NCBI RefSeq assembly: GCF_012935695.1
Contig: NZ_CP052859.1
Location: forward strand, 1,839,001-1,903,000
DNA: 64,000 nt
Direction of reading: 5' to 3'
From: Pseudomonas sp. ADAK18
Lineage (GTDB): Bacteria > Pseudomonadota > Gammaproteobacteria > Pseudomonadales > Pseudomonadaceae
Positions within the stretch are counted from its first letter, which is position 1. The number at the start of each line of letters is the position of its first letter. The translations under genes and the position numbers were made by a program. The notes under the pieces were generated by a model. It saw only the letters and a program-made list of their open reading frames with translations, did not search any database and was not told where the DNA came from. This document shows, in pieces, positions 1,390 through 25,655 of this stretch.

Positions 1390-1400
1390 AGGAGATGACG

Positions 1401-4665: not shown

Positions 4666-4694
4666 GAGGCTCTATCCTTTCAAGGAACCCAGCG

Positions 4695-5654: not shown

Positions 5655-5657
5655 ACC

Positions 5658-6485: not shown

Positions 6486-6487
6486 GG

Positions 6488-8107: not shown

Positions 8108-8116
8108 GGAGTTTAC

Positions 8117-8815: not shown

Positions 8816-8816
8816 C

Positions 8817-9668: not shown

Positions 9669-9733
9669 GCCGGCCAGTCTACCTGGCAGCCACGGCCCAG
9701 GCAAAAACGCCGAGACGGGCTCGGCGTTGGAGG

Positions 9734-11152
9734 TCATCGGCCCTGATACTCGCCGCTCTGGCGTAATTGGGTGGCGGTGTCGAGGATGCACTGGCGCAGG
9801 ATCTCGACCACCTCGTCTACCTGGGCATGGGTGATGATCAAGGGCGGTGACATCACGTTCAGATGACCAATCGGCCTGACCAACAGACCCTTGGCCTGCG
9901 CCCGCAGATGAATTTTCTCGCCGATGTTTACCGCATCCGGCAGCAGCGCCTTGCTGTGTTTGTCGGCGACAAACTCGATGCACGCCATCAGGCGCTGACA
10001 GCGCACGTCACCCACCAGCGGCAAGTTCGCCAGGGTTTGCAGGCGCTGTTCCATGTACACCCCGACGTCTTCGACATGAGCCAGCAGGTTTTCCCGCTCG
10101 ATAATCTCGATGTTTTTCAGTGCTGCCACGCAACTCACCGGGTGGCCGCTGTAGGTGAAACCATGGGTAAAGCAGCGGCCCTTGCCGGGTTCGCCGATCA
10201 CTTGCCAGATGCGCTCGGAGAAAATGCAGGCGCCCAGGGGCAGATAACCCGAAGTCAGCCCCTTGGCCGTGGTGATGATGTCCGGCTGCATGTCGAACAC
10301 TTCCTGAGAGGCGAAGAATTTGCCCAAGCGCCCGAACGAGGTAACGACCTCATCCGCCACGTACAGCAGGTCGTGGCGCTGGCAGACTTCCCACATGCGC
10401 CGGTGATAACCCTTGGGCGGAATAATCACGCCGCCCGAACCCATGATCGGTTCAGCAAAGAACGCCGCGACCTTGTCGGCGCCGATGGTCAGGATCTTGT
10501 CTTCGAACTCGTTCACCAGAAAGTCGAGAAAATCCGCTTCGCTCATGCCCTGTGGCGCCCGGTAATAGTTGGGGCAGGAGATGTGGTGGAACAGGTCGTT
10601 CATGAAGTCGAATTCCGGCGCGCGGTCGGCTGCCTTGTTGCCGATGGACATCGTCAGGAAGGTCGAGCCGTGATAGGCATTGAGCCGCGAGATCACGTGT
10701 TTCTTTTCATGCTTGCCACGGCTGTTCTGATAGAACTGCACCAGCCGATAGGCGGTGTCGACCGCCGTGGAACCGCCGGTAGTCAGAAACACATGGTTGA
10801 GGTCGCCCGGGGCCAGGCTGGCAAGCTTGGCGCACAGCTCGATGGCGGTGACGTTGGCCATGTCGCAAAACGGATTGGAGTAAGCCAGTTGGCGAACCTG
10901 GTTGGCGATGGCATCGGCCATTTCCTCACGGCCCAGGCCGATGTTGGTGCACCACATGCCGCCGACGGCATCCAGGTAGCGGTTGCCAGCGGTATCGTAG
11001 ATATACGCGCCATCGCCTGCGGCAATGTTCAGCGAGCCTTGTTCCCGATGTTCATCGAACATATGGAAACCGTGCATGTAGTGGGCCTTGTCGGCGGCCA
11101 CCAATTGGTTGTGGTCGAACTGTGCGAAGAATTCGGGATTCGGCAGGGTCAT
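9734..11152 (-). CDS. Class III aminotransferase (PLP-dependent)
   Basis: A 472-residue fold-type I aminotransferase. Visible motifs include the N-terminal MGHFHMF-like region (HGFHMFDEH), DAVGGMWCTNIG, LYVADEVVTSFGRLG, and TTAKGLTSGY with the PLP lysine near residue 297. The family includes putrescine, taurine and omega-amino-acid:pyruvate transaminases. The adjacent PotF-like gene (34 nt away, same strand) favours a polyamine or omega-amino acid substrate. The ATG at 11152 is chosen over a GTG 9 nt upstream because AAGGTG is well spaced for it. Confidence 0.88.
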   Translation of the reverse strand: MTLPNPEFFAQFDHNQLVAADKAHYMHGFHMFDEHREQGSLNIAAGDGAYIYDTAGNRYLDAVGGMWCTNIGLGREEMADAIANQVRQLAYSNPFCDMANVTAIELCAKLASLAPGDLNHVFLTTGGSTAVDTAYRLVQFYQNSRGKHEKKHVISRLNAYHGSTFLTMSIGNKAADRAPEFDFMNDLFHHISCPNYYRAPQGMSEADFLDFLVNEFEDKILTIGADKVAAFFAEPIMGSGGVIIPPKGYHRRMWEVCQRHDLLYVADEVVTSFGRLGKFFASQEVFDMQPDIITTAKGLTSGYLPLGACIFSERIWQVIGEPGKGRCFTHGFTYSGHPVSCVAALKNIEIIERENLLAHVEDVGVYMEQRLQTLANLPLVGDVRCQRLMACIEFVADKHSKALLPDAVNIGEKIHLRAQAKGLLVRPIGHLNVMSPPLIITHAQVDEVVEILRQCILDTATQLRQSGEYQGR

Positions 11153-11186
11153 GAGGTTCACCTTCTAGGGTTGAGGAGGTCCTGGA

Positions 11187-12287
11187 TCATTTGCCGGTCT
11201 TGACGGCATTCCAGGTTCGGGTGATCAGGCGCACGGCATCTGGCGGCTGGCTTATCTGCGTAAAGAGCCGCTGCATCGTCGCCGGGTCTGGGTAGATGGC
11301 CGGGTTATCGCGAATATCGGCATTCACCAGAGGCTTGGCCGCCAGGTTGCTGTTGGCGTAATGAATGGTGTTGCTGACGCCAGCCATCACCTGGGGTTGC
11401 AGGAGAAACTCGATGAATGTGTGGGCGTTGGCGACATGGGGGGCGTCGGCCGGGATATAGAAATTATCGAACCAGATCAACGAACCTTCCCGGGGAATGA
11501 AATAGTCCAGTTTGATCTTGGCTCCAACCTCTTCAGCCCGTGCCTGGGCGGTGGCGTAATCGCCGGACCAACTGGTGGACAGACACAGGTCGCCGTTGGC
11601 CAGGCCATTGATAAAACCACTGGAATCAAATTTGCGCAGGTAAGGGCGCACGGCCATCAATACATCCTGGGCGGCCTTGAGGTCTTTGGGTGCTGCGCTG
11701 TTAGGGTCCCGGCCCAGGTAGGTCAGGGCCAGGGGGATCATGTCGGTGGGGGAGTCCATGAAGGTAATGCCGCAGTCGGCAAACCGGGAAATAATCTTCG
11801 GATCGAAGATCATTGCCAGGGAACCGATCGGCGCGTTCGGCATGCGCTCTTTGATCTTGTCGACGTTGTAGGCCACGCCATTGCTGCCCCAGGTATACGG
11901 GGCGGAATAGGTCACGCCTCGGTCGTAGTTTTCCAGGCTGCTGAGAACCAGCGGGTCGAGGTTTTTCCAGTCCGGCAGTTGTGTCTTGTCCAGGGGCTGG
12001 AACATTTTCGCCTTGATCAGCAGCGGTACCAGCGCCGCATTGAGCACCACCAAATCGTATCCCGAACGGCCGGAAAGCAATTTACCCTGGACCGTTTCAT
12101 AGGAGTCATAGGTGTCGTAGATCACCTTGATACCGGTGGCCTTTTCGAAATCCGCCAGAGTGTGTTCGCCGATATAGTCTGCCCAGTTGTAGATACGCAG
12201 CGTGTTGCCAGGATCGTCCGCCGCCCGGCTCAGGGGGGAGAGAATCAGCAATGTAATGCTGAGCAGGGCGATACGGGCTTTATGCAT
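11187..12287 (-). CDS. Polyamine ABC transporter substrate-binding protein, PotF/SpuD-like
   Basis: A 366-residue periplasmic binding protein with a Sec signal (ARIALLSITLLILSPLSRAA, cleavage about residue 22). The mature start NTLRIYNWADYIGEHTLADF and YDTYDSYETVQGKLLSGRSG are typical of spermidine/putrescine receptors (PotD/PotF/SpuD). No cognate permease or ATPase lies next to it, so it may share components encoded elsewhere or act as an orphan receptor. It is upstream of, and probably co-transcribed with, the aminotransferase. Confidence 0.88.
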   Translation of the reverse strand: MHKARIALLSITLLILSPLSRAADDPGNTLRIYNWADYIGEHTLADFEKATGIKVIYDTYDSYETVQGKLLSGRSGYDLVVLNAALVPLLIKAKMFQPLDKTQLPDWKNLDPLVLSSLENYDRGVTYSAPYTWGSNGVAYNVDKIKERMPNAPIGSLAMIFDPKIISRFADCGITFMDSPTDMIPLALTYLGRDPNSAAPKDLKAAQDVLMAVRPYLRKFDSSGFINGLANGDLCLSTSWSGDYATAQARAEEVGAKIKLDYFIPREGSLIWFDNFYIPADAPHVANAHTFIEFLLQPQVMAGVSNTIHYANSNLAAKPLVNADIRDNPAIYPDPATMQRLFTQISQPPDAVRLITRTWNAVKTGK

Positions 12288-12454
12288 GGCGAACCCACCT
12301 TGATATTGTCAGTGTTGTCAGGGGCTGAGAACACTTTCAAGCAGGTACCACGGGTTTGCCATACCCCGTTCGGGTAGGTGGGTATGCGGCCGATTGAACC
12401 CTTTCGGCAGATCAGTGCCACACTGTTAAACCGCGAACTCATCTGGAGGTGCCT
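12288..12454. promoter_or_regulatory. Divergent promoter region with an inverted repeat
   Basis: This 167-nt region separates the minus-strand polyamine-binding gene from the plus-strand aldo/keto reductase. It contains CATACCC (12360-12366) and GGGTATG (12380-12386) as inverted 7-bp arms, and a direct TTGTCAG repeat near 12306-12320. These could be operator sites, but no bound regulator is identifiable. GGAGG at 12445-12449 is the ribosome site for the reductase. Confidence 0.35.
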
Positions 12455-13276
12455 ATGCGAACCATTGATCTGGCCGGCGTTTCTGTCCCTGTTATCGGCC
12501 AAGGGACCTGGCGCATGGGAGAAGACCGTCAGCAGCGGCAAGCTGAGGTTGGCGCCTTGCAGTTGGGCATCGATGAAGGCATGACCCTGATTGATACCGC
12601 TGAAATGTATGGCGAAGGCGGCGCGGAAGAGGTGGTGGGCGAGGCGATTCGTGGCCGGCGCGGCCAGGTGGTGCTCGTCAGCAAGGTCTACCCACATAAC
12701 GCCAGCCACAAAGGTATTCCTCGTGCCTGCGAAGCCAGTCTCACCCGACTGGGCACGGATTACATCGACCTGTATCTGCTGCACTGGCGCGGGCAGTATC
12801 CTCTTGAGGAAACCGTCGAAGCCTTCGAACGTCTGCGCGAAGCGGGCAAGATCGGCCACTGGGGCGTTTCCAATTTCGACGTGTCAGACCTCCAGGAACT
12901 GGCGTCCCCGGCGTGTGCCACCAATCAGGTGCTCTACAACATTGAAGAGCGCGGTATCGAATTCGATTTGCTGCCTTGGTGGCAACAGCATCACTTGCCA
13001 TTGATGGCTTATTGTCCGATCGCCCAAGGCGGTGAGCTGTTGTCCAGTCCCACCCTCAAGCAGATTGCCCATCGTCACGAGGTGACACCGGCCCAGGTAT
13101 CGTTGGCCTGGGTCCTGCGCCAGGAAGGCGTGATTGCCATTCCCAAGGCGGTACAGCCCGAGCATGTTCGACTCAATGCCGCAGCAGCCAATATCGTCCT
13201 TGACGAGCATGACCTGGACGCCATTGACCGGGTGTTCGGTGCACCGAAGCGCAAACATCCGTTGGCGATGGTCTGA
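12455..13276 (+). CDS. Aldo/keto reductase
   Basis: A 273-residue NADPH-dependent TIM-barrel oxidoreductase. The catalytic set is visible: aspartate and tyrosine in LIDTAEMYGEG, lysine in VLVSKVYP, and histidine in LYLLHWRG. GVSNFD and the C-terminal IPKAVQPEHVRLN (cofactor phosphate binding) also fit. It reduces aldehydes or ketones in the cytoplasm; the substrate is unknown. ATG 12455, 5 nt after GGAGG, is preferred to the GTG at 12449 that overlaps the ribosome site. Confidence 0.88.
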   Translation: MRTIDLAGVSVPVIGQGTWRMGEDRQQRQAEVGALQLGIDEGMTLIDTAEMYGEGGAEEVVGEAIRGRRGQVVLVSKVYPHNASHKGIPRACEASLTRLGTDYIDLYLLHWRGQYPLEETVEAFERLREAGKIGHWGVSNFDVSDLQELASPACATNQVLYNIEERGIEFDLLPWWQQHHLPLMAYCPIAQGGELLSSPTLKQIAHRHEVTPAQVSLAWVLRQEGVIAIPKAVQPEHVRLNAAAANIVLDEHDLDAIDRVFGAPKRKHPLAMV

Positions 13277-13293
13277 TACGCCATTTCCGGTGA

Positions 13294-13328
13294 ATCGGCA
13301 TCACCTGTGGCAATGCCGATCCTCTTTC
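13294..13328. terminator. Hairpin terminator between convergent genes
   Basis: ATCGGCAT (13294-13301) and ATGCCGAT (13313-13320) make a perfect 8-bp stem with an 11-nt loop, followed by CCTCTTTC. It lies 18 nt after the aldo/keto reductase stop and just before the end of the convergent hcp gene. Confidence 0.5.
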
Positions 13329-13336
13329 AATCGGGT

Positions 13337-13852
13337 TTAGCCCGCGACGGGGCTGCGCCAGTCATCGGAGCCGGAAGTACCGGAAACCTCGTGGGTCCAG
13401 ACGATTTTGCGGTAGGTGAAATACACCTCTTCCTGATGAGTGAAGTGGGCATTGTTCGGATCCTGGCAGTTGGGCATCCGCGACTGGATGTCGACGATAA
13501 TCGCGTCCTCCAGCTCAATGGTGAAGTAGTGCTCCTGAGTGCCGGCGCTGGAGGTGCGGTACCACTCCAGCCGGCATTTGACCATTTCCCCTGAAGTCAG
13601 CGCGCTGAACAGCAGCGGCGAAGATTTATCGAATACCTTGCTGATCATCAGCGGTTTGTGAACGCGCTGGCCTGTCGGCTGGCCGGATTGTGGATCGCGG
13701 GGAATGATGACCTGATGCGCAAAGGCCTGGACCAGAATCTGATCTTCATGGCCCTCTTGGTAAATGTTGCCGACCGAGTCCTGAGTAAACGTGCCTGCGG
13801 TAATCAGACCTTGTTTGGTGCCGGTAATGGACAGATACGCGGGTGTTGGCAT
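13337..13852 (-). CDS. hcp: Type VI secretion tube protein Hcp
   Basis: A 171-residue Hcp-family protein (MPTPAYLSITGTKQGLITAG at the N-terminus, EEVYFTYRKIVWTHE near the end). Hcp hexamers stack into the inner tube of the T6SS and carry effectors. It is transcribed away from tssA with about 600 nt between them. It appears intact although the sheath and baseplate genes next door are deleted, so it may serve another T6SS in the genome, or be a relic. A good sigma-54-type promoter lies about 70 nt upstream. Confidence 0.93.
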   Translation of the reverse strand: MPTPAYLSITGTKQGLITAGTFTQDSVGNIYQEGHEDQILVQAFAHQVIIPRDPQSGQPTGQRVHKPLMISKVFDKSSPLLFSALTSGEMVKCRLEWYRTSSAGTQEHYFTIELEDAIIVDIQSRMPNCQDPNNAHFTHQEEVYFTYRKIVWTHEVSGTSGSDDWRSPVAG

Positions 13853-13922
13853 GATTGGTTTCCTTGCCTGATAAATAGAATCGCCCCAAATGGCGATATT
13901 GCCCGGTGGGCGATATTTGATA

Positions 13923-13937
13923 ACAAGAAGCGTGCCA
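13923..13937 (-). promoter_or_regulatory. Candidate sigma-54 (RpoN) promoter of hcp
   Basis: Read on the minus strand the site is TGGCACG-CTTC-TTGT, against the consensus TGGCACG-N4-TTGC: 14 of 15 agree where specified, with the -12 C replaced by T. It would start transcription near 13911, about 59 nt before the hcp ATG. RpoN control of hcp genes and of the H2/H3-type systems is established in Pseudomonas, which supports the call; the -12 mismatch lowers certainty. Confidence 0.6.
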
Positions 13938-14301
13938 AAAGATTATGGAGTAGGTAACTAGTGGGTTTCGTGGTGGGTGGTGTTTCAAGTTGATGCGCTT
14001 GCTGGGAATTTTGAATTGTTAAGTTGATTTGCTTGCGCAGCGGTGCGCAGTTAATTGCTCATTCTATTTGGCGTTGCATGTGGTTTGAGAGGTGGATGAT
14101 AAAGAGGTATTCAGCTGGAATTAGCTGCGCAAGTTATTGCATAGGTATTTTTGGTTGAGTGGTTTCGATGTTTTTGTGTCCAGTAATCATTGGGTTTTAT
14201 GGCTTTTGTGTCAGGGTGTTAATAAGGCGAATGTAGGGTGAGTGCTGGTTGTTTTGTTATTATTTTTAGAGCTTTCATTATTTTTGTAGGAGGTTTCTTA
14301 A

Positions 14302-14400
14302 GTGCGTTCCTTCTACTTGATCAATGCTAAGGGTGTGGATAAGGTGCGTGCTATTCGTTGTGTTAAGACGGAACTTAAACAGTGTTTCGATTCGGGTTGA
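14302..14400 (+). CDS. Possible short leader ORF upstream of tssA
   Basis: A 32-codon ORF starting with GTG, 7 nt after a strong AGGAGG (14289-14294). The peptide (MRSFYLINAKGVDKVRAIRC at the start) is not recognised. It ends 53 nt before tssA, which itself has a poor ribosome site, so this could be a translated leader or the scar of a lost gene. The good ribosome site is the only real support. Confidence 0.2.
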   Translation: MRSFYLINAKGVDKVRAIRCVKTELKQCFDSG

Positions 14401-14453
14401 AAGCTTTGTCGGAACTGTCGGCGTCCCTTGGGAATTAAAGTGCGGTCCCTCAA

Positions 14454-16004
14454 ATGGTTTATTCAGACAAGCTTTCTGCTTATTACCTGGAACTTGCTCA
14501 GTCGCCGAGTTCTGAAATGAGCTTCTCAGGTGAGGATGTGCGTTTTTCTGGCGAGTACGAGGCCCTGGAAAACGAACTGAGCAAGGCGCATTCGATACAT
14601 GGCCATGGTCAGCCTGACTGGCAAAAGATTGTGGAAAAAAGCGATACCTTGTTGCGCCATGAATCCAAGGATCTGCGAATCGCCGTCTGGTTGACCTGGG
14701 CACTGTATCAGCGCGAATCCTTCCCTGGACTGCTCGCTGGGTTAGGGCTGTTGCGCTATCTCTGCGAGCATCACTGGGCGGTGGTTTATCCGCGTAAATC
14801 GCGTACCCGTGGTGCTGCGTTTGCCTGGCTGGTTCCGCGTATTGAACAGGTATTTACCCAGAGTCTGTCGCTCAAGGACCAACGACCTCTGTTCGAGTGC
14901 ATGCTCGAACACCTGTCTCGCCTTGACCAGTTGTGGAGTGAACTCCTCGGTGATGAAGCCCCCTTGCTGTTACCCATTCGCCGGCAGCTGGCGGACAGGC
15001 TGCAGCGGGTCGCCGAAGGCAACCCCCAGCCTGGAGGGGTGAGTGGTGTCATTACTCAAATCAAGCAAGTCACCACTCAGTTGCTGTCGCCCGATCACGT
15101 CGTGGATAACGAAAAAGACGCCCATAAGCTCCTGCGCGTCATGCAGGAAAATGCTCGCCCCTTGTGCGCCTGGTGGTTACGCCAGAGTGCGACTGATCTG
15201 CGTGCCCTACGCCTGAACCGAACACTGACCTGGCTGGCGATCTGCACCCTCCCGGAGTGTGACAACGAACAGATTACCCCCTTGCGAGGACCCGCCCCGG
15301 ACAAGCTCAAGCGTTATCAGGAGCGCTTTCAACAGGGCTGCCATGCCGATCTTTTGCTGGAACTTGAGGGCAGCCTGACCCTCGCTCCTTTCTGGTTCGA
15401 CGGATTACGCATGGTCTGGGAGTGCCTGCAGGCATTGCAGGCTCACTTGGCCATGACCGAGACGGAAGTGTGCTTCGCCCTGTTATTGCAACGCTTGCCA
15501 GGGCTGGCCCAGCTGCGATTTCACGATGGAACGCCGTTTGCCGACGCGGTCACTCGCAACTGGATCAATACCCAGGTCATGCGCCACCTGCATACACCTG
15601 CACCAAAAGCCGCACTCGACACTGAGGCCGCCCCTTGGGAGAACGCGTTGCAGGAGGTCACACCCTTGCTTCGCAAGGATGGGCTCAAGGCTGCCGTCCG
15701 GGCCTTCAAGCCAGGTCTACAGGCCGCCCGGGGAGCGCGCGCCCGGTTCCATTGGCGGCTGGGCCTGGCCAGGTTATGTGGCCTGGCGGGCAGGTATGAA
15801 CTGGCCAAAATCCAGCTGGAACAGCTTGATCAAGAGCTACAGCTCGCAGGTTTGCAGCATTGGGAGCCTGACTTGAGCCTTGAAGTGCTGCAACTGTTGT
15901 ACGGCTGTTGCGATGTGTTGCCGCAAAGCCATGCCGTACGTGAGCGCAAGGAAGAAATCCATCGCAGGCTGTGCCACTTCGATCTTGAAGCGGTACTTGA
16001 ATAG
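14454..16004 (+). CDS. tssA: Type VI secretion protein TssA (ImpA family, HsiA2-like)
   Basis: A 516-residue protein with an N-terminal ImpA domain (SGEDVRFSGEYEALENEL, ALYQRESFPGLLAGLGLL) and a C-terminal VasJ-like region ending DLEAVLE. TssA caps or initiates sheath and tube polymerisation at the baseplate. The reading frame looks complete and undamaged. It is the first gene of the former main T6SS operon, followed after 32 nt by a normal ribosome site and the first codons of tssB. Without the sheath, baseplate and membrane-complex genes beside it, it cannot act at this locus unless paralogues elsewhere supply partners. Confidence 0.92.
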   Translation: MVYSDKLSAYYLELAQSPSSEMSFSGEDVRFSGEYEALENELSKAHSIHGHGQPDWQKIVEKSDTLLRHESKDLRIAVWLTWALYQRESFPGLLAGLGLLRYLCEHHWAVVYPRKSRTRGAAFAWLVPRIEQVFTQSLSLKDQRPLFECMLEHLSRLDQLWSELLGDEAPLLLPIRRQLADRLQRVAEGNPQPGGVSGVITQIKQVTTQLLSPDHVVDNEKDAHKLLRVMQENARPLCAWWLRQSATDLRALRLNRTLTWLAICTLPECDNEQITPLRGPAPDKLKRYQERFQQGCHADLLLELEGSLTLAPFWFDGLRMVWECLQALQAHLAMTETEVCFALLLQRLPGLAQLRFHDGTPFADAVTRNWINTQVMRHLHTPAPKAALDTEAAPWENALQEVTPLLRKDGLKAAVRAFKPGLQAARGARARFHWRLGLARLCGLAGRYELAKIQLEQLDQELQLAGLQHWEPDLSLEVLQLLYGCCDVLPQSHAVRERKEEIHRRLCHFDLEAVLE

Positions 16005-16036
16005 GCCCTCGATCCACCTAAAAAAGGAGATACATC

Positions 16037-16104
16037 ATGGCCAAAGAAAGTTCGGTAGCCTGAATGGCAGCGGACGGATCGAGGTCAAACCGGGTGTCCT
16101 TTAA
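16037..16104 (+). pseudogene. Fused remnant: first codons of tssB joined to the tail of tssE
   Basis: AAAAAAGGAG then ATG (16037) opens MAKESSVA, the conserved start of TssB (VipA; relatives begin MAKEGSVAPKERI), but TGA follows at 16061. In another frame the next bases encode LNGSGRIEVKPGVL and stop at 16102-16104, overlapping the tssF start as a TssE tail normally would. The simplest reading is one deletion from codon ~9 of tssB through tssC into the last ~15 codons of tssE. The tssB assignment is strong; the tssE tail is inferred from position and style. Confidence 0.7.
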
Positions 16105-16424
16105 CCGTTACTACCAGAGCGAGCTCAATGCCTTGCGGCAGTTGGGTCGGCGCTTCTCCGAGCGCAATCCGGCACTGGCGCCGTTTCTCGGGGATGCGGG
16201 CCAGGATCCTGATGTGGAACGGTTGCTCGAGGGTTTTGCTTTCCTGACCGGTCGTCTGCGGCAGAAGCTTGATGACGAGTTGCCTGAGCTGAGTCATTCG
16301 CTGATGCACTTGCTGTGGCCCAACTACATGCGGCCTTTACCAGCGTTCAGCATGTTGCAGTTTGATTCCCTCAAGCGTGCAGGTCCAGCTGTTCGGGTGG
16401 AGCGAGACACTCCGGTAGAAAGCG
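16094..16424 (+). pseudogene. tssF: tssF, N-terminal fragment
   Basis: Starts with GTG at 16094 in MSFNRYYQSELNALRQLGRR, the typical TssF (VasA/ImpG) baseplate N-terminus, and runs through ELPELSHSLMHLLWPNYMRP to about VERDTPVES. After about 110 of the normal ~600 residues the homology stops and the frame runs into unrelated residues, terminating at 16456. The following bases encode TssK in another frame, so tssF 3', tssG, clpV and everything up to mid-tssK are missing. Confidence 0.85.
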
Positions 16425-16693
16425 CTGCTACCTGCTGTCCTGCCTCAAGGAGGTGATCGGTCTACTGGCCAACCGTGGCGATGCCATTGCCGAACGCCTG
16501 GGTTCCAATGGCAACGCTGGAGGAACGGAGGTTGGCGACTTTCTGATGTTGCAACTGATCAACCGCACTGAGTTGGTTCTGCGTCACTACCTGGACCTCG
16601 TCCAAGTCAGTCCTGAAGTGTTGTACCGGACCTTGTTGTCGATCTTGGGCGAACTGTCGACGTTTGCCAGCGACAGCAAGCGCCCCAGCCTTG
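16419..16693 (+). pseudogene. tssK: tssK, internal fragment
   Basis: From RCYLLSCLKEVIGLLANRGD through VGDFLMLQLINRTELVLRHY and SPEVLYRTLLSILGELSTF to about FASDSKRP, this is the middle of TssK, the baseplate adaptor to the membrane complex. Only ~90 of ~445 residues remain. There is no start codon of its own, and the frame becomes nonsense after KRP where the tssM fragment begins. The bounds are approximate, set by where the homology seems to change. Confidence 0.8.
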
Positions 16694-16694
16694 A

Positions 16695-18500
16695 GGGACG
16701 CTATCGGACAGCTTGCGGGCGTACTTGATGCTCAACCTGCGAGAGCGGCGTGACCCGGACTGGCTGAAGGAACGGGTCGCGGGCCAATGGTCCTCGCTGC
16801 ACACCGGTGAAACCGGGGCGCAGCGACGGTTGAATGAGCACTTTGAGCGGCTGCTTGAACAACCCTTTGTGCAGACACTCAATGACGAGTTGGTGGCTCA
16901 GGCACGTCAGGTGCTGCGAGGGGAGTCATTGGCCAGTGTGGTGTACCGTGTATTGCGCGAGCAGGCGCGTAACCTTGAACCTTATCGCTTTAGCCAGCAT
17001 CTGGATCCACAGGGTCGGGTGTTTGCTGGGATTGATCACCCTATTCCCGGGTTTTACACACAGCGTTATGTGCGTTATTTCGCGGGGCAAGGAGCCAAAC
17101 TGGTGAACACGCTCGTGCAAGAGAACTGGGTGCTGGGCGAGGGTACCGACCTGAGCCCGATGGACTTGCGTCGGCTGATAGTGGAGTTGGAGCAACGTTA
17201 TTTCAGCGAATACGCCGAGGCCTGGAGCGAAGCCCTTGGCCGGGTTCGCCTGCAAGACACCGACACCGTCAGGCAAGGTTCCGAGCAATTGGCCAGCCTG
17301 ACCTCGGCACAGTCGCCATTGTTACAGCTGTTGCAACAGGTAAAGGAGCACACGCGTTTCCCGTCGGCTGCGGAGCGTGTCGATGAGCTGGCTGCCAGCA
17401 AATCGGGGCAGGTGACGCCCATGGGACACGTTGCCCAGGTCGCATTGGGCAGTGCTCTGGCCGCAATTCCCAATGAGTCATCTGATAACGCTCGCCGGGC
17501 ACTGCAACGTCGTTTCGAGTCCCTGCATCAATTGCTGGATGACCAGCACAATCCAGGAATCGAACTGACCCAGGTGTTGCAGGCGCTCAATCTGCTGCAC
17601 TTGCAACTGGCAACTCTGAGCCGAGAGGGGCAGCCGGAGCAGGCGGCGTTCAATAGAGTCAGGCAGCGGATGCAGGGACAACAGGATGCCCTGAGCGACC
17701 TGCGCAATGTCGCCATGCGTTTACCGTTGCCGCTAGCCTCCTGGATTGATGGCTTGGCTGACAGTCATTGGCGTCGGGTACTCGATGATGCCTACCGCCA
17801 TGTGAATCAGCGCTATCAGAGTGATGTGTACGGTTTTTACGCTAAGGCAATCAAGCAACGCTATCCATTCAATGCCCACGCCAGCAGTGATGTTGCCCTT
17901 GATGACTTCCATGAGTTCTTCAGGCCCCAGGGGGTACTGGCGCGATTCTTTGACGGCTACTTGAGACCTTTTGTCAGTGGTGATGCGGGCCGTTATCGAT
18001 TGCGTAGCTTGGATGGCCGCAGTTTACCCATGTCTCGAGCGTTGCTTGATCAGTGGGGAAAGGCACAAGTTATTCGCCGCGGTTTTTTTGCTGATGATCA
18101 GGGCCCGCCTCATGTGCGTTTTACGCTTGCGCCGTACAGCCTCGACTCAACGGTGAGTCGTGCGATCTTTCGATTCGGTGGCCAGCAAATGGAATACCGC
18201 CATGGTCCGATTGTACCCATGGCGTTCCAATGGCCGACCGAGACTGAAGATGGTCGTAGCAGTCTGGTGTTGGAGCGGGGTGCGGAGCGACCGGTGGGCA
18301 TTGAGAAGAATGCCGGGCTCTGGTCCTTGTTTCGATTGTTCGATCTGATGCAAAGCGAGTCTTTAAGCGGTCGAGATGTGCGGGTACTCAAGGCCGACCT
18401 CGGTGGTTTACGCGCCAATTACTTGCTGACCAGTCAGAGCACGTCCAGCCCGTTTGATCTGGCGATATGGCGTACTTTCCGCATCCCGGAGCAGTTGTGA
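16695..18500 (+). pseudogene. tssM: tssM (icmF), C-terminal half
   Basis: From SDSLRAYLMLNLRERRDPDW to the stop, about 600 residues match the periplasmic C-terminal half of TssM/IcmF, including PGFYTQRYVRYF and the terminal domain QMEYRHGPIVPMAFQWP. The membrane helices and cytoplasmic Walker-containing N-terminal half are gone. An in-frame TGA at 16692-16694 precedes the homology, so any product would need an internal start (for example TTG 16713) and would lack a membrane anchor or signal. The end overlaps the stp1 start, as in intact clusters. Confidence 0.88.
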
Positions 18501-19228
18501 TCCGCCGGAACGGTCGCTGGCGCAGCGCTGGACGAACCGACCGCGGCAAGGTCAGGGGTCGCAATGAGGATGCTTTTCTCGATTGTCCACAACAAGGTTG
18601 CTGGGCGGTGGCAGATGGGATGGGTGGCCACGAAGCAGGTGACGTTGCCAGTCAACTGGTGGTCAATAGCCTGGCCGAGTTGCCAGGGCAAGGCAGTTTC
18701 GATGAGCGCCTCCTGAATGTTCGACGATGCCTGCAATGGCTTGATCGGCAGTTGGGGCAGGTATTACCAGTAACGGATCACGCCACTGATTGCATCATGG
18801 GGAGCACGGTGGTGGCGCTATTGCTTGAGGGGGATCGCGCGGCCTGTATCTGGGCCGGTGACAGCCGCTGTTATCTCTGGCGGGAACAGGCGCTGTACCA
18901 ACTGTCCCGGGATCATTCCTTGATGGAGCAACTGATCGATGAGCGGCAGATGAGCCTGGAACAGGCGCGAGGTCATCCACAGGCCAGGGCCTTGACCCGG
19001 GCAGTAGGTGCGCGGGCGCCATTGACATTGGAGGTGCTGGAGCTCAGGACTGTTCCTGGGGATGTGTTTCTATTGTGCAGCGATGGTTTGTATCAGGGAC
19101 TCAGTCCTGGAGAGTTGGGAGGTGCCCTGAGCCTGAGAACACCACAACGGGTCCTGGACTGGCTGTTCGAAGCGGTATTGCGTGGTGCTGCCAGGGATAA
19201 TTTGACGGCGGTGGTGGTGCAGCCATGA
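18497..19228 (+). CDS. stp1: T6SS-associated PP2C-type protein phosphatase (Stp1/PppA)
   Basis: A 243-residue PPM-family serine/threonine phosphatase. All metal-binding motifs are present: VADGMGGHEAGDVAS, GSTVVALLL, WAGDSRCYLW, LSRDHSL, LCSDGL and RDNLTAVVV. It counteracts the neighbouring kinase in post-translational control of the T6SS. GTG 18497 overlaps the tssM stop (GTGA), so translation was coupled; the frame is also open upstream within tssM. The gene is intact although its T6SS operon is deleted. Confidence 0.9.
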   Translation: MIRRNGRWRSAGRTDRGKVRGRNEDAFLDCPQQGCWAVADGMGGHEAGDVASQLVVNSLAELPGQGSFDERLLNVRRCLQWLDRQLGQVLPVTDHATDCIMGSTVVALLLEGDRAACIWAGDSRCYLWREQALYQLSRDHSLMEQLIDERQMSLEQARGHPQARALTRAVGARAPLTLEVLELRTVPGDVFLLCSDGLYQGLSPGELGGALSLRTPQRVLDWLFEAVLRGAARDNLTAVVVQP

Positions 19229-20154
19229 GTGATATACAGGCAGGCTCCGGTGCAGGTCCGGCCCCGACGGCCACCAGCATGCCTTCCTTGCTGGCTGGGC
19301 GTTATCGTATTGAAAGAGTGCTGGGTGCAGGCGGCATGGGGGTGGTGTACCGAGCTAGGGATCTGCTGCATGAGCAATTTGGCGAACCTGAATCCAGTGT
19401 GGCGTTGAAGGTGCTGGGGGAAGTATTTTCCCAGGCGACGGACGCTCATGTGCTGTTGTACCGCGAGTTTTCCCTGACACGTCGCCTGCTACATGAGCGG
19501 GTGATCCGGGCTTACTCGTTCGAAGTGGACACAGCTTGCGAGATGGCGTTCTACACCATGGAACTGATGACTGGTGTGACCCTGGACCGTTTGCTGCATG
19601 AGTGTCCAGGCGGATTGCCGTGGCATGAGTTGCAGCCCATTGCCGTCGGTTTGCTCGAAGCATTGAGTTATACCCATCAACAAGGTGTGCTGCACGGGGA
19701 TGTAAAACCAGGCAATGTCATGGTGGGTGATCAAGGGCTGCGACTGTTTGACTTCGGACTTGGTCAAACCGTGAAACAGGTAGCGGCAGGGCTGCCTGGT
19801 TTAAGCCGCAGTCGATTCAACGCCTGGACCCCGTCCTATGTCGCACCGGAACTGCTTGATGGTGCACCACTGTCTGCGAATGCCGACCTCTATGCCGTGG
19901 CGTGTGTACTCTACGAACTGGCGCAAGGGAGGCGCGCTTGTGACGGCCACTTGAGGAATCGGTCGGCAGCACGGTGGGGCTCACCTGGAGAGTTACCCCG
20001 GCACTGTTGGTCAGCGCTACGTGTGGCCATGGATTTCGACCCTCGCTGTCGCACGGTGACAATCGGTGAGTTACAAGAGGTGATAGGGCGCGCCAGAGGC
20101 GGCATTCGAGGCTGGTTCAAGCTCCGAGGTTGTACTCAGCCAACCAAATCATGA
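19225..20154 (+). CDS. stk1: T6SS-associated serine/threonine protein kinase (Stk1)
   Basis: A 309-residue soluble eukaryotic-like kinase. Visible motifs are the glycine loop GAGGMGVVYRARD, VALKVLG (ATP lysine), HGDVKPGNVMV (catalytic loop with HGD in place of HRD), LFDFGLGQ (DFG) and YVAPELLDG. It lacks the transmembrane and periplasmic parts of PpkA, matching the shorter Stk1 of the HSI-II cluster. It overlaps stp1 by 4 nt. HGD marks a non-RD kinase. It overlaps the convergent DUF6388 gene by 19 nt. Confidence 0.9.
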   Translation: MSDIQAGSGAGPAPTATSMPSLLAGRYRIERVLGAGGMGVVYRARDLLHEQFGEPESSVALKVLGEVFSQATDAHVLLYREFSLTRRLLHERVIRAYSFEVDTACEMAFYTMELMTGVTLDRLLHECPGGLPWHELQPIAVGLLEALSYTHQQGVLHGDVKPGNVMVGDQGLRLFDFGLGQTVKQVAAGLPGLSRSRFNAWTPSYVAPELLDGAPLSANADLYAVACVLYELAQGRRACDGHLRNRSAARWGSPGELPRHCWSALRVAMDFDPRCRTVTIGELQEVIGRARGGIRGWFKLRGCTQPTKS

Positions 20155-20465
20155 AGCTGGCAGTATTCGGCCCAGCTCAGTCCAGCCATCTGAGCGACTT
20201 CTTTATGGACTTCAAGGCGCCGCGCCTCGAATTCTTCGGGCGAGGGTGCCGTCAGTTGCAGTGTCAGCTCCCAGGCGAACAGTCCTTGGCGTTCCGCTTC
20301 GGCTTCAAAGGCTTCGTGCAGGCGTTCGGCACGGTATTGCTCAAGCGTTTCTCCCTTGGCCTGGGCGGCCAGGGGGTTCAACGTGTTCAGCTCAGCAGCT
20401 AGGTCAGGGTGTTGGTTCAAGAACCTGTCCAGTGCGAGTTGGTGGTTTTCGCCGGGTTGGGACAA
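20136..20465 (-). CDS. DUF6388-like small protein
   Basis: A 109-residue, charged, mostly helical protein (ALDRFLNQHPDLAAELNTLN and EQYRAERLHEAFEAEAERQG). It resembles the Pseudomonas DUF6388 family, whose function is unknown to me. The start is TTG at 20465, supported by GGAG spaced 7 nt upstream. It has no signal peptide or membrane segment. Its 3' end overlaps that of stk1 on the other strand. Confidence 0.65.
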   Translation of the reverse strand: MSQPGENHQLALDRFLNQHPDLAAELNTLNPLAAQAKGETLEQYRAERLHEAFEAEAERQGLFAWELTLQLTAPSPEEFEARRLEVHKEVAQMAGLSWAEYCQLHDLVG

Positions 20466-20501
20466 AGGCTTACTCCAAAATGGCCAGGTGGTCGATTGGT
20501 G

Positions 20502-20759
20502 TCACGAGGTTCTGTGTAGACGGCTGTTACGTCTGGCGCGTTTGCGCAGACGGTGGTTTATCCAGGTTTGCAATGGGTCAAGCAAGAAGAACAGCAGGTA
20601 GGCTGTCAGTACCAGAGCCAAGTCGATCCAGGTTTCCGCTATCGGTCCTTCAAACAACTCGATACCGGCTTTGATCAAAAACAGAAGTGCGACACCACAC
20701 AGCCATAGCATCAGGGTGAAAAGCAGTGGGCGTGCACGACTTGAACGCTTGTGTTGCAT
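20502..20759 (-). CDS. Small two-helix membrane protein, unknown function
   Basis: An 85-residue protein with two predicted membrane helices (LLFTLMLWLCGVALLFLIKA and the later LALVLTAYLLFFLLD) and a very basic C-terminus (RLRKRARRNSRLHR). The ATG at 20759 (MQHKRSS) is chosen over an upstream in-frame start that would add an unlikely 15-residue leader. I do not recognise the family. It lies 36 nt upstream of the DUF6388-like gene on the same strand and may be co-transcribed with it. Confidence 0.5.
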   Translation of the reverse strand: MQHKRSSRARPLLFTLMLWLCGVALLFLIKAGIELFEGPIAETWIDLALVLTAYLLFFLLDPLQTWINHRLRKRARRNSRLHRTS

Positions 20760-21086
20760 GTTGAATACCCTTTCCTTGAAGACGCAGATGGGCTTCGGCC
20801 ACACCTGCTGAGTCGGTCTTCCCGCTCGGTTCGAAGCGCGTCTTTCCTAACTGCGCCATATTTCTCATGACTGGCTTGGACGGCTTTGGTTCCCGTATCG
20901 ATAGTGTTCCTCAGTTGCAGGGTCTTAACCTGTAACGTTGCTGAGCAAAATCGTTTCGAGCACCGCGCAACCTGAAAAAGCATCCTTGGCCAGGCACATG
21001 ACCATTCGGCCAAATTAAGACGCAGATAGTAACAATTTATCCCGTTTATGTGGGCATAAGTCTCTATCAGAAAACGCTTGAATCCC
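20760..21086. other. Intergenic region with no clear gene
   Basis: About 327 nt. A minus-strand frame here encodes LQLRNTIDTGTKAVQASHEK and similar helix-like sequence but has no supported start and runs across the next gene, so it is not called. The right edge contains the terminator hairpin of the serine hydrolase. Confidence 0.4.
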
Positions 21087-21094
21087 TCAAGCGT
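21071..21094 (-). terminator. Rho-independent terminator of the serine hydrolase
   Basis: On the minus strand ACGCTTGA-GGGAT-TCAAGCGT forms a perfect 8-bp stem followed directly by TTTTCTG. The stem includes the TGA stop codon (21089-21087), so the gene ends inside its own terminator. Confidence 0.7.
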
Positions 21095-22418
21095 GCGGGA
21101 TTGCCAGCAACCGTCGCGCCATTGCCTCGAAGGCGGGCAAGGTCACACTGTCGTTGGCGGCATTGCCAGCAATCGGATGAGAAGCGTAGCGGACAATTAC
21201 CATTTCGGCCTTGGGGTCGATATATATGCTTTGGCCATGTACCCCGCGGGCCATGAAGGCGCCGTCCGGGTTATGGGTCACCCACCACATCGAACGATAG
21301 CTCCAGCCTTTCAACTGACCATAACCCGCTTGGGCAAACGCCTGTTTGTCGCCACCTTGCCGGATATCCGTCACAACACTTTCGGGCACGATCTGTTGCC
21401 CATTGAAGCGCCCACCGTTGCGCAGCATTTCGCCAAACCGTGCCAGGTCCCGCAGTCCGGTATTCAGGCCGCCGCCGGCGAACGGCGTACCGATGGAATC
21501 AACGGTGAAGTAGGCGTCTTGTTCCGCGCCGAGTCGGCTCCAGATTCGCTCGCTGAGCAGTTGGGCGACGTTGCGCCCGGTGGTTCGGGCAATCACCCAG
21601 CCCAGCACATCGGTATTCACTGTTTTGTAGCCGAATGCCCGGCCGTGTTCGCCCTTTGGCTGAACGGTTTGCAGGAACTCGTAGTAACTGCGCGGTCCGG
21701 TGTAGTCCTTGGGCTTGGGCAGCGGATTGCCGGCTTGGGCGTGGGCCCATACTTGGGCGTTGGGGTCTGCGTAGTCTTCGCTGTAGTCCAGGGCGGTGGT
21801 CATGTCCAGCACCTGGCGCAGTGTCGCACTGCCAAAGGCTGAATCAGCCAGTTCCGGAACATACTCGACGATCTTTTTCCCGGCATCGAGTGTGCCGTCT
21901 GCCACCAGCATTGCCCCCAGGGTGCCGATCACCGATTTGGTGACTGACATGGCCGCATGTTGCCCGTCTGGCTTGAGCACCCCAAAGTAGCGTTCATAGA
22001 CAATGGCCCCGCGATGCAGGACCACGATGCCGTCGGTGTAGGTGGCGTCGAGGGTCTGGCGCCAGGTGAGGGGCTGGCTGGCGCCCACTGGCACAACGGA
22101 CAGCTCATCAATCCCCGGCACAGGGTTTTCCGGCAACGCCAGTGGTGCGCCGAGCCCCCGGGAGACATTGACGGTGGGCATCAATTGGCGAAAATTGGCC
22201 ACGCTCCAGCGCATGGCCGGGAAGCGGAAATAGCTGCCGCCTTCAAAACGCAAGGTACGGTCAGCCGGTGGCGGGGCGCCGACCATCCATTTGAGTGTCA
22301 CCGGATCGCTGGCGGCTGCGTCGGGAAAGGTCGGCTGGGTTGCCGCGCTGGCGACGGGGCCAGCCAGCCAGAGCAGCGCACAGGTGGCGACGGTGAGCAA
22401 GGGGGAGATTCGCAGCAT
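21087..22418 (-). CDS. Serine hydrolase, beta-lactamase class C fold, exported
   Basis: A 443-residue protein with a signal peptide (LLTVATCALLWLAGPVASAA). The catalytic SxxK is visible in MSVTKSVIGTLGA; RAFGYKTVNTDVLGWVIARTTG and MARGVHGQSIYID are family-like. Relatives include 6-aminohexanoate-dimer hydrolase and esterase-type proteins, so an esterase or amidase in the periplasm is more likely than antibiotic resistance. The ATG at 22418 gives the signal peptide; the frame extends 59 codons upstream without support. It appears to be monocistronic. Confidence 0.85.
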   Translation of the reverse strand: MLRISPLLTVATCALLWLAGPVASAATQPTFPDAAASDPVTLKWMVGAPPPADRTLRFEGGSYFRFPAMRWSVANFRQLMPTVNVSRGLGAPLALPENPVPGIDELSVVPVGASQPLTWRQTLDATYTDGIVVLHRGAIVYERYFGVLKPDGQHAAMSVTKSVIGTLGAMLVADGTLDAGKKIVEYVPELADSAFGSATLRQVLDMTTALDYSEDYADPNAQVWAHAQAGNPLPKPKDYTGPRSYYEFLQTVQPKGEHGRAFGYKTVNTDVLGWVIARTTGRNVAQLLSERIWSRLGAEQDAYFTVDSIGTPFAGGGLNTGLRDLARFGEMLRNGGRFNGQQIVPESVVTDIRQGGDKQAFAQAGYGQLKGWSYRSMWWVTHNPDGAFMARGVHGQSIYIDPKAEMVIVRYASHPIAGNAANDSVTLPAFEAMARRLLAIPHA

Positions 22419-22722
22419 CAGTGGGCGCCTTGACGTCGGGGAGTCGCTCTGGACAAGGGCATGAGGGTGCTCATGGGCTCGAGTCCGTTCGAGAGGAGCG
22501 TCGCCTCTTGAGGCAACAAGTTTGGCAAAGGATGGGCCAAACCCGGGCAGTCGACAAGCGCCGTGGGTCAAGGCGGATGCTGAATAATCGTGCACCCTTG
22601 GGCAAATTGCTTTCGTTTGCGGTCTCAGGACGTGTAGCGTTATAGCTTCGTTGAACGCAACGACTTAAGCGTTGCTCCCGGTACCGCGAAGGCCTGGGAG
22701 CGATGGGGCAGAGGGATATGTC
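22419..22722. other. Divergent intergenic region, serine hydrolase / EIIC-EAL
   Basis: About 304 nt between divergent genes. I saw no convincing gene, repeat or operator; it presumably contains both promoters. GAGGG at 22711-22715 is the likely ribosome site of the plus-strand gene. Confidence 0.4.
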
Positions 22723-24795
22723 ATGGCGCAAACGCTGTTCAAACTCTTCTTCACCCAACGCCTGGCAGCCTTGGCCAGCACCGAGTCGTTACGGGCCATA
22801 CGCGAAGGGTTGTTGTGGATCCTGCCGTGCCTGCTGGTCTCGGCGGGTTTTCTGGTGTTGTCCGAATGCGCCCAGGTGCTGGGGTTCGACCCGCAACTGG
22901 TGACCTTCCTTTCCGGGTTGCACGCCAAGATCAGCTCGGTGATTCCGTTGCTGGTGGCGGCTTCCATCGGTTACATGCTGGCGATTCAACACCGGCTACC
23001 ACAGTTGCCGGTGGCCTTCCTGTGTCTGGCCCATGTAGTGATCGCGACGTTCGTCCTGCGGGACCATCCCCGGGCAGCGGCGACTTTTATATTGTTTATC
23101 GCGATTGCTTCGCCGCTGCTCAACGTGCCGATCATTGCCTGGCTGCACCGACGCCGCTGGACCCGGTTGGTCAACGTGGATCTGGTAGGGCATAACCTCA
23201 AGGGCACCATCAATATGGTACTGCCGGGGGCGATCACGGCGGTGATCCTGGTGTGCGTGCTGTCGCTGTTGCTGCAAATTCCTCATATTGCGCAGATCGA
23301 GGGGCCGATGGCGCTCGATGCGCTGGAATCGCCCTACACCAGCGGGACGTTTGTTGCGGCGATCAATTCACTGCTGTGGTTTTTTGGTATCCATGGGGTC
23401 TATGCCATTCAGCCGTTGTTCGACGTCATGGAGCAGGCCGTTGCCCTCAATGGTGCAGCCCTGGCCGCAGGCGAGCCGATCAAATACGTGTTGAACGGCG
23501 GCCTGCTGGGGTGTTTTGCGTTTATCGGCGGGTCGGGTGGTTCATTGTGCCTGCTGCTGGCGATCCTGCTGTTTTCCAAGAGCCAGTCCATGCGCTTGCT
23601 GGCGGTGGCCAGCCTGCCGTTGTCGCTGTTCAATGTCAGTGAAGTGCTGCTGTTCGGTTTGCCCATTATTCTCAACCCGCGGTTGTTCATTCCCTTCCTG
23701 CTGGTTCCCGTGCTCAACGCGCTGCTGGCCATGACGGTGGTGCAGATGGGCTGGGTGTCGCCGTCGGTGGTCAGCGTGCCGTTTACCGCTCCAGTGTTGC
23801 TCAACGCTTACTTGAGCACCCACGGTGACTGGGGGGCGGTGTTGCTGCAGGTCGTGCTGGTAGCAGTGGGGACATTGATTTATATGCCCTATGTGCGAGC
23901 CATCCATCGGGCAGCAGAGGGCGGGACGGTGTACCTCAAATCCTTCGATACAACCTTTAGAGGGTTGGAGGAGAAGGGGCGCCTGCTGGAACTGGACCCG
24001 GTATTGGCGTCCCATAAAACCCTGGCCCGCCAGGCGAGTGAGTTGAGCCATATCCAGCAGATCAGCGACTACGAGTTTTACCTGGAATTCCAGCCGCAGG
24101 TGTCGACCACCACCGGCTTGTGTACCGGCTGTGAAGCACTAATGCGCGCGCGCGATGCCAAAGGTGTGGTGCATTCGCCCTGGGAGTTCCTGCAATGGTT
24201 GGCGCAGGCCAGGCTGATGCCGGATGTCGATGTCTGGGTGGCGACCCAGGCGGTACGGCAATACCAGAAGTGGCAGAAGGTGGGTTTCACGCTGCCCATG
24301 ACCATCAATATTTCCAGCGCAACCCTGACGTCCCGGGCCTATGGCGACCGCTTGGTGGCGATTCTTGCCCAGGCCCAGGGCCAGGTGTCGGTGGAGATTA
24401 CCGAGGATGCGTTGGTGGGGGACATTCAGGTGACGCGCCAGATGATCGAGAAGCTGCAGGGTATCGGTGCCAAGGTCTATATCGATGACTTTGGCACCGG
24501 CTTTTCCGCCCTGAGTTATTTGCATCAATTCCCGGTGGACTTCATCAAGATCGACCGCAGCTTCGTGGTGGCCCAGCACGACCCCAAAGGTGCCCAAGTG
24601 CTGACGGGCTTGTTGCGTTTTTGTGAGGCGTTGAACCTGGGTGTGGTGGTGGAGGGAGTGGAAACCGCCGAACAGTTGGCCTTCCTGCAGTCTGGATCGG
24701 AGCTGATTATCCAGGGCTGGTATTTCAGCAAGGCGCTACCGGGTGATCAACTGCAGGGCTTTGTCCGCGATAGGGCGGTCAAGGCCGCAGGCTAG
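22723..24795 (+). CDS. PTS EIIC-like membrane domain fused to an EAL phosphodiesterase
   Basis: A 690-residue protein. Residues ~20-420 form a multi-helix EIIC-type sugar permease domain (LREGLLWILPCLLVSAGF-like start, GGSGGSLCLLLAILLFSKS, NVSEVLLFGLPIILNPRLF). Residues ~455-690 are an EAL domain: CEALMRARD, DDFGTGFSALSYL, DFIKIDRSF and VEGVETAEQ, so the catalytic set looks complete. It should hydrolyse cyclic di-GMP, perhaps with the EIIC part sensing a sugar in the membrane (inference). No EIIA or EIIB gene is nearby. The ATG at 22723 follows GAGGG. The 3' end overlaps the convergent gene by 17 nt. Confidence 0.88.
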   Translation: MAQTLFKLFFTQRLAALASTESLRAIREGLLWILPCLLVSAGFLVLSECAQVLGFDPQLVTFLSGLHAKISSVIPLLVAASIGYMLAIQHRLPQLPVAFLCLAHVVIATFVLRDHPRAAATFILFIAIASPLLNVPIIAWLHRRRWTRLVNVDLVGHNLKGTINMVLPGAITAVILVCVLSLLLQIPHIAQIEGPMALDALESPYTSGTFVAAINSLLWFFGIHGVYAIQPLFDVMEQAVALNGAALAAGEPIKYVLNGGLLGCFAFIGGSGGSLCLLLAILLFSKSQSMRLLAVASLPLSLFNVSEVLLFGLPIILNPRLFIPFLLVPVLNALLAMTVVQMGWVSPSVVSVPFTAPVLLNAYLSTHGDWGAVLLQVVLVAVGTLIYMPYVRAIHRAAEGGTVYLKSFDTTFRGLEEKGRLLELDPVLASHKTLARQASELSHIQQISDYEFYLEFQPQVSTTTGLCTGCEALMRARDAKGVVHSPWEFLQWLAQARLMPDVDVWVATQAVRQYQKWQKVGFTLPMTINISSATLTSRAYGDRLVAILAQAQGQVSVEITEDALVGDIQVTRQMIEKLQGIGAKVYIDDFGTGFSALSYLHQFPVDFIKIDRSFVVAQHDPKGAQVLTGLLRFCEALNLGVVVEGVETAEQLAFLQSGSELIIQGWYFSKALPGDQLQGFVRDRAVKAAG

Positions 24796-25627
24796 TGTAT
24801 TCCTCGTGTGTCCGTTGTACTTCTTCAACCAGCCGGTCAATTCCCGCAAGCCGTGCCCGGTTGTCATGATCCCAAGGATGAAACCCCGGCTTGAAGTAAT
24901 GCATCCACGGCCGTGCCATCCGTGGAAACACGCCCTTGGACCCGTATAGAAACTTGAGCATCCGCCAGAACCCCTTCAGGTGTCCCCCGGCGCGGCGGTC
25001 GGCGATTAACAGGTGCAGGTGAAAATCAAACACCACCAACCAGAAGAGCACCGTGGTGAACAGCATAGTCCCGGTGCGTAACAGGTAGCGCTTGGGCCCT
25101 GGTTTGATCACCGTATTCCAGACGTCAAACGCCACCGCCTTGTGCTCTGTCTCCTCCAGCGCATGCCAGTACCACATCTGTTGATAGCTCTTGATCGACA
25201 CACCAAAGCGTGAAGGGTCGCTGAGGAGAATTTCGGCCAGCATCGCGGTGTAATGTTCCAGGGCAATGGTCACCGCCAGGTTGAACGAGGCGGGCAGGTG
25301 CTTCTTCTGCAAGTCCAGTATCACTTTCAGTCGACGGTCCAGGGTATGTGCCGGCAGGCCGGCGGCTTGCAGCAGGTCGTTGTAGGCCACATGTTCACGG
25401 CTGTGCATGGCTTCCTGACCGATGAATCCTTGGACTTCTTTCTTCAACTGCGGGTCTTCAATGCGATCGCGGTAGTGGCGCACGCTGTCCATGAAGAACA
25501 ATTCGCCCTGAGGAAACAGCAACGACAAGGCGTTGAAGAAGTGGGTGATGAAGGGGCCTTGCTCGTGCCAGTTCTTGATGTGCTCGGCAGGCAGGGCAAA
25601 ACGCAGATCGCGACGAATGGGCAGCAT
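24779..25627 (-). CDS. PF10118-family putative metal-dependent hydrolase
   Basis: A 282-residue protein of the family annotated as predicted metal-dependent hydrolase (PF10118). Histidines and acidic residues that could bind a metal pair are visible: FIGQEAMHSREHVAYN, ALEHYTAMLAE and HALEETEHKAVAFD, an arrangement like di-iron helical proteins. A hydrophobic hairpin (GTMLFTTVLFWLVVFDFHLH) may touch the membrane. It is the last gene of a minus-strand set with an SDR and a BVMO-like enzyme (28 nt gap), so a role in lipid or alkane oxidation is likely. Function is not proven for the family. Confidence 0.75.
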   Translation of the reverse strand: MLPIRRDLRFALPAEHIKNWHEQGPFITHFFNALSLLFPQGELFFMDSVRHYRDRIEDPQLKKEVQGFIGQEAMHSREHVAYNDLLQAAGLPAHTLDRRLKVILDLQKKHLPASFNLAVTIALEHYTAMLAEILLSDPSRFGVSIKSYQQMWYWHALEETEHKAVAFDVWNTVIKPGPKRYLLRTGTMLFTTVLFWLVVFDFHLHLLIADRRAGGHLKGFWRMLKFLYGSKGVFPRMARPWMHYFKPGFHPWDHDNRARLAGIDRLVEEVQRTHEEYTSLRP

Positions 25628-25655
25628 GTTGGGTGCTCCGTGGCGTGATGAAAAG

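Follow-up and report, generated by a model that had tools for sequence, protein, structure and literature searches.

How a type VI secretion system (T6SS) locus can consist of open reading frames separated by slivers of other genes is the question raised by one stretch of the Pseudomonas sp. ADAK18 genome. This stretch, called the window here, is the whole 64,000 nucleotides that were analysed (contig NZ_CP052859.1, positions 1,839,001 to 1,903,000 of the forward strand). An earlier note made from the letters alone had proposed the stepwise collapse of an H2-type operon between preserved flanking genes. We believe, with considerable confidence, that an HSI-II-like cluster was freshly destroyed here by three illegitimately joined deletions, and that this is ordinary gene loss caught early.

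Profile searches assigned every sizeable remnant to a family. The tssB start and the tssE tail are below profile length and were positioned by base alignment to Pseudomonas spelaei, in which tssB gave 170 bits with TIGR03358 in a profile search. The remnants are the following:

13337-13852, minus strand: hcp (TssD), intact (PF05638, 120.7 bits; TIGR03344, 231 bits)
14454-16004, plus strand: tssA, intact, 516 aa (TIGR03362, 401 bits, cut-off 230)
16037-16063, plus strand: tssB, 8 codons from its start followed by a stop made by the junction (sequence; base alignment to the P. spelaei tssB start)
16061-16104, plus strand: last 13 to 14 codons or so of tssE, ending in the stop of that gene (collinear with the tssE of P. 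spelaei, TIGR03357, 118.6 bits)
16064-16430, plus strand: 5' part of tssF, about 115 residues (PF05947, 4-120 of 608; TIGR03359, 1-114 of 600)
16429-16703, plus strand: internal piece of tssK, about 91 codons (TIGR03353, 187-277 of 429)
16702-18500, plus strand: C-terminal half of tssM, about 599 codons, open frame, native start lost (TIGR03348, 565-1168 of 1168, 504 bits)
18467-19228, plus strand: stp1, PP2C-type phosphatase, 253-aa open frame (PF13672, 48 bits)
19225-20154, plus strand: stk1, Ser/Thr kinase, 309-aa open frame (PF00069, 113.6 bits)

The hcp gene is divergent from the cluster, which begins with tssA (dN/dS 0.19 against P. spelaei). The stp1 product reached 168.6 bits with NF033484, under the 230 cut-off of that model. 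No Rfam match at the gathering score was found in window 12000-21000. The earlier note had reckoned with homology searches failing to assign the fragments; they did assign the tssF, tssK and tssM pieces, and together with the base alignments for tssB and tssE they showed that its family assignments were right and that tssA, stp1 and stk1 flank the fragments as open frames. A complete set of TssA to TssM, ClpV and Hcp, as a working T6SS would have, is missing at the locus, where tssB, E, F, K and M are broken and tssC, G, clpV, J and L are absent.

When public genomes were scanned with the TssM piece, 10 loci were obtained. The protein identities of P. fluorescens ISL-62, P. spelaei CCM 7893 and P. 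karstica CCM 7891 to this piece were 95%, 92% and 86%, respectively; P. spelaei and P. karstica came from this public-genome contig scan and not from the genus-sample draws. P. spelaei has the same cluster unbroken, with the window pieces 89-94% identical to it. At thresholds of at least 82% identity and at least 25 bases per match, its sequence is collinear with window 1-35167 at 85-94% identity, with the exception of three gaps, a difference of about 2 kb at window 4622-4695 and smaller unaligned stretches. Ten ORFs of P. spelaei were profiled as TssE, TssF, TssG, TssH/ClpV, a sigma-54 activator (the regulator ORF scored as this only, with no model above cut-off), an FHA protein, TssJ, TssK, TssL and TssM, and further profiles identified Hcp, TssA, TssB and TssC (first 307 residues tested). 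P. karstica is collinear across the cluster and has a full-length TssF, the only Tss protein profiled there.

The HSI-II (H2-T6SS) order of P. aeruginosa, which we take to be tssA-B-C-E-F-G-clpV-sfa-fha-J-K-L-M-stp1-stk1, is the same in P. spelaei, and the window pieces are collinear with this intact cluster. Compared with HSI-II, the window is wholly without C, G, clpV, sfa, fha, J and L and has lost most of B, E, F and K and half of M. Gene order, the sigma-54 activator, the FHA protein and stp1/stk1 (in P. spelaei or the window), together with a TssL without the OmpA-like end that the H1-type TssL carries, support an HSI-II-like (H2-type) cluster, a type that goes by the gene order of P. 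aeruginosa and that found in P. spelaei. The HSI-II-like order read from the letters was thus borne out at this order-based level.

Alignment to the intact relative, which had been suggested as a check, placed each of the three separate junctions (B-E, F-K and K-M) that had been proposed, at approximately 16060, 16430 and 16703. Deletion sizes and shared bases were judged on the P. spelaei sequence:

16059-16060: junction 1, 2 shared bases, loss of about 2,367 bp (the remainder of tssB, all of tssC and most of tssE)
16429-16430: junction 2, 2 shared bases, loss of about 9,044 bp (the remainder of tssF, then tssG, clpV, sigma-54 activator, fha, tssJ, 5' tssK)
16702-16703: junction 3, 2 shared bases, loss of about 3,028 bp (3' tssK, tssL, first half of tssM)

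The three deletions total 14.4 kb, and the islands left between the junctions are 378 bp (tssE tail and tssF start) and 275 bp (tssK). At the three junctions the pieces abut, with no inserted bases or mobile element, so nothing there marks a deletion mediated by an IS or a phage, although an element that was cleanly excised is possible. No long direct repeats were found at the deletion ends, the exact shared run being 2 bases at each junction, which is not what deletion by homologous recombination would leave. When the P. spelaei stretch from tssF into tssM (L069:1300-13700) was searched against the ADAK18 genome, 14 matches were obtained, of which two were the known tssK and tssM pieces and the other 12 were only 65-72% identical. 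There was no close second copy of the lost tssF-tssM stretch, and a move of these genes elsewhere in the genome was rejected.

The same junctions were looked for in two overlapping draws that both sample the genus. Among 398 genomes, window 16380-17180 was matched at E 1e-60 or better by 4, namely its own genome, ISL-62 (93-95%, differently arranged), G048 (71%) and G261 (80%). Among 293 relatives, 24 matched window 16030-18600 at E 1e-150, none of them above 73% besides the own genome. No intermediate carrying only some of the three deletions was found among the genomes searched. Of the stepwise collapse that had been proposed, the three separate junctions were borne out; they could have arisen in one event or in several. 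One of the relatives compared, ISL-62, has lost the same cluster otherwise.

The locus of P. fluorescens ISL-62 (L033 / L042, NZ_JAGGOG010000006.1, window-equivalent 4384-16702) matches the window pieces at 90-94% and is scrambled. Seven small pieces of 180-979 bp separate the left flank from tssL-tssM, and five of these are in reverse orientation. Read from the left, the left flank (up to window 4384) is followed by a tssK/tssL piece. Next come the five reversed pieces, which match in turn window 11067-11540, tssK, the sigma-54 activator gene of P. spelaei, tssF and tssL. After them stand a forward tssF piece and then tssL-tssM-stp1-stk1, also forward, with a TssM of full length (1160 aa). 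Four of the pieces (tssK to tssM) adjoin in P. spelaei with no visible loss of bases between them, which is a mark of inversion. A breadth-first search showed that the order needs a minimum of 3 inversions, with two shortest paths, and a reversal distance that low is found in approximately 0.9% of the signed orders of 7 blocks; random shattering in ISL-62 is thus disfavoured. Four stretches are also missing, so that the fewest-event model for ISL-62 consists of three inversions and four deletions, and these events also took out adjacent non-T6SS DNA.

The eight junctions of ISL-62 all differ in position from those of the window. This indicates that the two lineages broke the cluster independently, and, judged by these junctions, ISL-62 lost the same cluster separately and by a different route. 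An ancestral lesion shared with ISL-62 was rejected for junctions 2 and 3, both sides of which ISL-62 keeps in rearranged form. Junction 1 is not scorable there because ISL-62 has no match to the window tssA-tssB. It likewise has no match to the hcp and tssA of this cluster; elsewhere in its genome, at C21:56385-56642, lies a truncated Hcp-like fragment that contains a stop (profile 52-129). ISL-62 also lacks window 21221-22478, within a 502-aa minus-strand ORF. The join there has an overlap of 4 bases, and this is a further deletion close to the T6SS locus.

ISL-62 is closer to the window than P. spelaei in most bins of window 16501-27000 (93-95% vs 89-93%) and in 1-3000, whereas P. spelaei is closer over 3001-4500 and 10501-12000, and its identity climbs to 95-97% in parts of window 3000-12000 (peak 96.7% in 9001-10500). 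By most of the flank sequence, ISL-62 is the closest relative compared, with a mixed ancestry on the left side, which suggests past homologous exchange beside the T6SS locus (window 3000-12000). The tssK and PotF pieces, which are short, place the window nearer to P. spelaei than to ISL-62 (the tssK piece is 93% identical to each), and this mixed regional ancestry makes branch counts on short pieces shaky. At window 4635-4666, where P. spelaei has approximately 2 kb of extra DNA, two 13-nt arms form a perfect inverted repeat around a 6-nt loop; the surroundings of this repeat have copies of 82-100% identity on many P. spelaei and ISL-62 contigs, and it looks like a REP-type element.

The earlier note had left two explanations for the open flanking frames, either selection on these genes or very recent decay. 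Codons were compared between the window and ISL-62 with P. spelaei as the outgroup, and between the window and P. spelaei with P. karstica as the outgroup; codons that differ in all three, the two compared genomes and the outgroup, were left out. Among the control ORFs, ctrl_3 (1-2 internal stops) and ctrl_824 (4) were left out as doubtful frames, and no three-way comparison was obtained for ctrl_324. With P. spelaei as the outgroup, the synonymous changes on the window branch in the tssM, tssF and tssK pieces were 36.5, 7 and 3, respectively, and the nonsynonymous changes were 12.5, 0 and 2, respectively. The pooled counts were 46.5 synonymous and 14.5 nonsynonymous, against a neutral expectation of approximately 3.1 nonsynonymous changes per synonymous one. 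The upper bound on the neutral share of the branch, which runs from the split from the closest relative, was 6.5-12.6% for the three pieces and 9.2-15.2% for tssM alone, bounds (6-15%) that depend on the assumed background ratios of 0.3 to 0.1. With P. karstica as the outgroup, the synonymous to nonsynonymous counts were 138:49 for the window and 134:51 for the intact P. spelaei, with no difference (Fisher p 0.82).

Compared with the ISL-62 branch (75.5:15.5), the T6SS pieces on the window branch (78.5:31.5) had somewhat more nonsynonymous changes (Fisher p 0.068), with the largest share in stk1 (16:14). Nearby control genes had no such excess (81.5:11.5 in the window vs 129:29 in ISL-62, p 0.29). 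No gaps or stops were found in the window remnant frames against P. spelaei. The locus thus retains the substitution pattern of functional genes with a mild excess over ISL-62, as a recent pseudogene locus would. Both comparisons fit a mild relaxation that possibly came before or after the deletions and perhaps predated them. The collapse looks recent on these counts. Fragments that are unable to work in this machine have kept a low share of nonsynonymous changes like that of working copies, as recency predicts, and continuing selection is not needed; the supposition of very recent decay was thus supported by the TssM, TssF and TssK fragments.

The ADAK18 genome keeps a second cluster with TagF, TssM, TssL (long form), TssK, TssJ, FHA, TssA, TssB, TssC, Hcp, TssE, TssF, TssG and VgrG, which would be H1-type by what we take to be the H1-type gene order. 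At its clpV position lies a 904-aa frame, where P. spelaei clpV DNA matches at 68-69%. A full-length TssF of the H1-type locus (779-781 bits) was found in 4 of 4 genomes (window, ISL-62, P. spelaei and P. karstica). The genome has four VgrG genes, of which three lie apart from both T6SS loci (chromosome positions 1488150, 2266331 and 6206594). Some of these stray VgrG may be ex-partners of the lost H2-type system.

This second cluster could in principle use the remnants of the first, and hcp, tssA, the tssM C-terminal half, stp1 and stk1 might have been kept by selection for it or for some other role. All flanking remnants have open frames, and hcp has only 2 nonsynonymous vs 30 synonymous differences from P. 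spelaei. However, the H1-type cluster already has its own Hcp, TssA and TssM, ISL-62 does without a match to this hcp and tssA, and the tssM piece without its N-terminal half and the tssF and tssK pieces show a similar pattern, so that recency explains the constraint better. With non-working fragments equally constrained, selection on the flanking genes is not needed, and we regard this explanation as quite improbable. Still less credit can be given to an assembly artefact that hides a truly intact cluster. The junctions are seen in one genome only; however, that genome is a single contig with a completeness of 100, and the tssF-tssM stretch is absent elsewhere in it. With just 2 bases in common between the junction flanks, an assembler would have no repeat to collapse, and misassembly was judged highly unlikely.

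Fresh destruction by three deletions would have started from a complete HSI-II-like cluster, as P. spelaei and P. karstica still have. Three deletions (about 2.4, 9.0 and 3.0 kb) would then have been joined illegitimately at 2 shared bases, presumably by end joining after breakage, in a number and order of events that we can only infer. The loss would have been unopposed by selection if the system had become dispensable, and tssA, the tssM remnant, stp1 and stk1 would still be open because there has been too little time for lesions. Microhomology was measured in two ways, initially by the span over which breakpoints are equally good and later by the exact run of bases that the two sides share. 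Over the 11 joins of both lineages, the mean span was 3.1 vs 0.98 in random joins (P 0.002) and the mean exact run was 2.1 vs 0.66 (P 5e-5); for the three joins of the window, P was 0.13 and 0.03, respectively. One ISL-62 join gives 12 by span and 4 by exact run, and 2 of the 8 ISL-62 joins have no shared base.

Shared runs above chance would also be left if the three junctions of the window and the eight of ISL-62 each came from one catastrophic break-and-rejoin or template switch at a fragile locus. The small islands kept (378 and 275 bp in the window, 180-979 bp in ISL-62) fit such an origin, and a breakpoint of ISL-62 falls no more than about 16-27 bp from a window breakpoint in tssF. However, this near coincidence is not significant (about 0.08 by a hand estimate), the window retains order and orientation, and the 3 inversions that suffice for ISL-62 favour successive inversions. 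We therefore consider such single catastrophes unlikely. It would be an equally long shot that double-strand breaks recur at the H2-type locus in this species group, so that related lineages independently shatter it by end joining, with small tssF and tssK islands left instead of one clean deletion.

Half-lost clusters are rare, judged by tssF in 69 sampled genomes of the genus. In the 62 genomes with a match, 112 TssF matches of all T6SS types made 110 loci after split genes were paired, and 107 of these were near full length, the exceptions being the window and two split genes (in G037 and G051). Studies have shown that T6SS clusters can be lost in several ways. For example, the available part of a P. 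aeruginosa study gives 38 putative loss events among the H1-H3 apparatus clusters, with the H2 apparatus deletion hitting almost exclusively T6SS genes (PMC11751169). The window resembles it in the deletion of an H2 cluster, but that part describes neither serial-fragment multi-deletions nor a scrambled relative. In Salmonella, as far as the text at hand goes, an internal deletion of approximately 24 kb in SPI-19 of Enteritidis, or of 15 kb in SPI-6 of one strain, left a few T6SS ORFs (PMC2907695); each is described as a single large deletion, whereas the window has three with islands of 275-378 bp. Bee gut symbionts, in the portion of the report consulted, lost the whole locus, or lost part of it with the rest then pseudogenized (PMC8125069), whereas the frames remaining in the window are still open. 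Among the papers listed in our literature searches, none dealt with this locus or with a scrambled T6SS cluster, and the accessible part of the P. spelaei genome note mentions neither "type VI" nor "T6SS" (PMC13151681).

The kind of event is ordinary, that is, the decay of a presumably dispensable T6SS by what would be illegitimate recombination. Its main interest lies in the early stage and in two differently built wrecks side by side. T6SS loss is usually seen afterwards, as absence, and half-lost clusters are rare snapshots of it. In this case the course can be followed at base level in two related lineages and an intact relative, with several illegitimate joins before decay by point mutation becomes visible. 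As more strains of this group are sequenced, the tempo and mechanism of secretion-system loss would become measurable.
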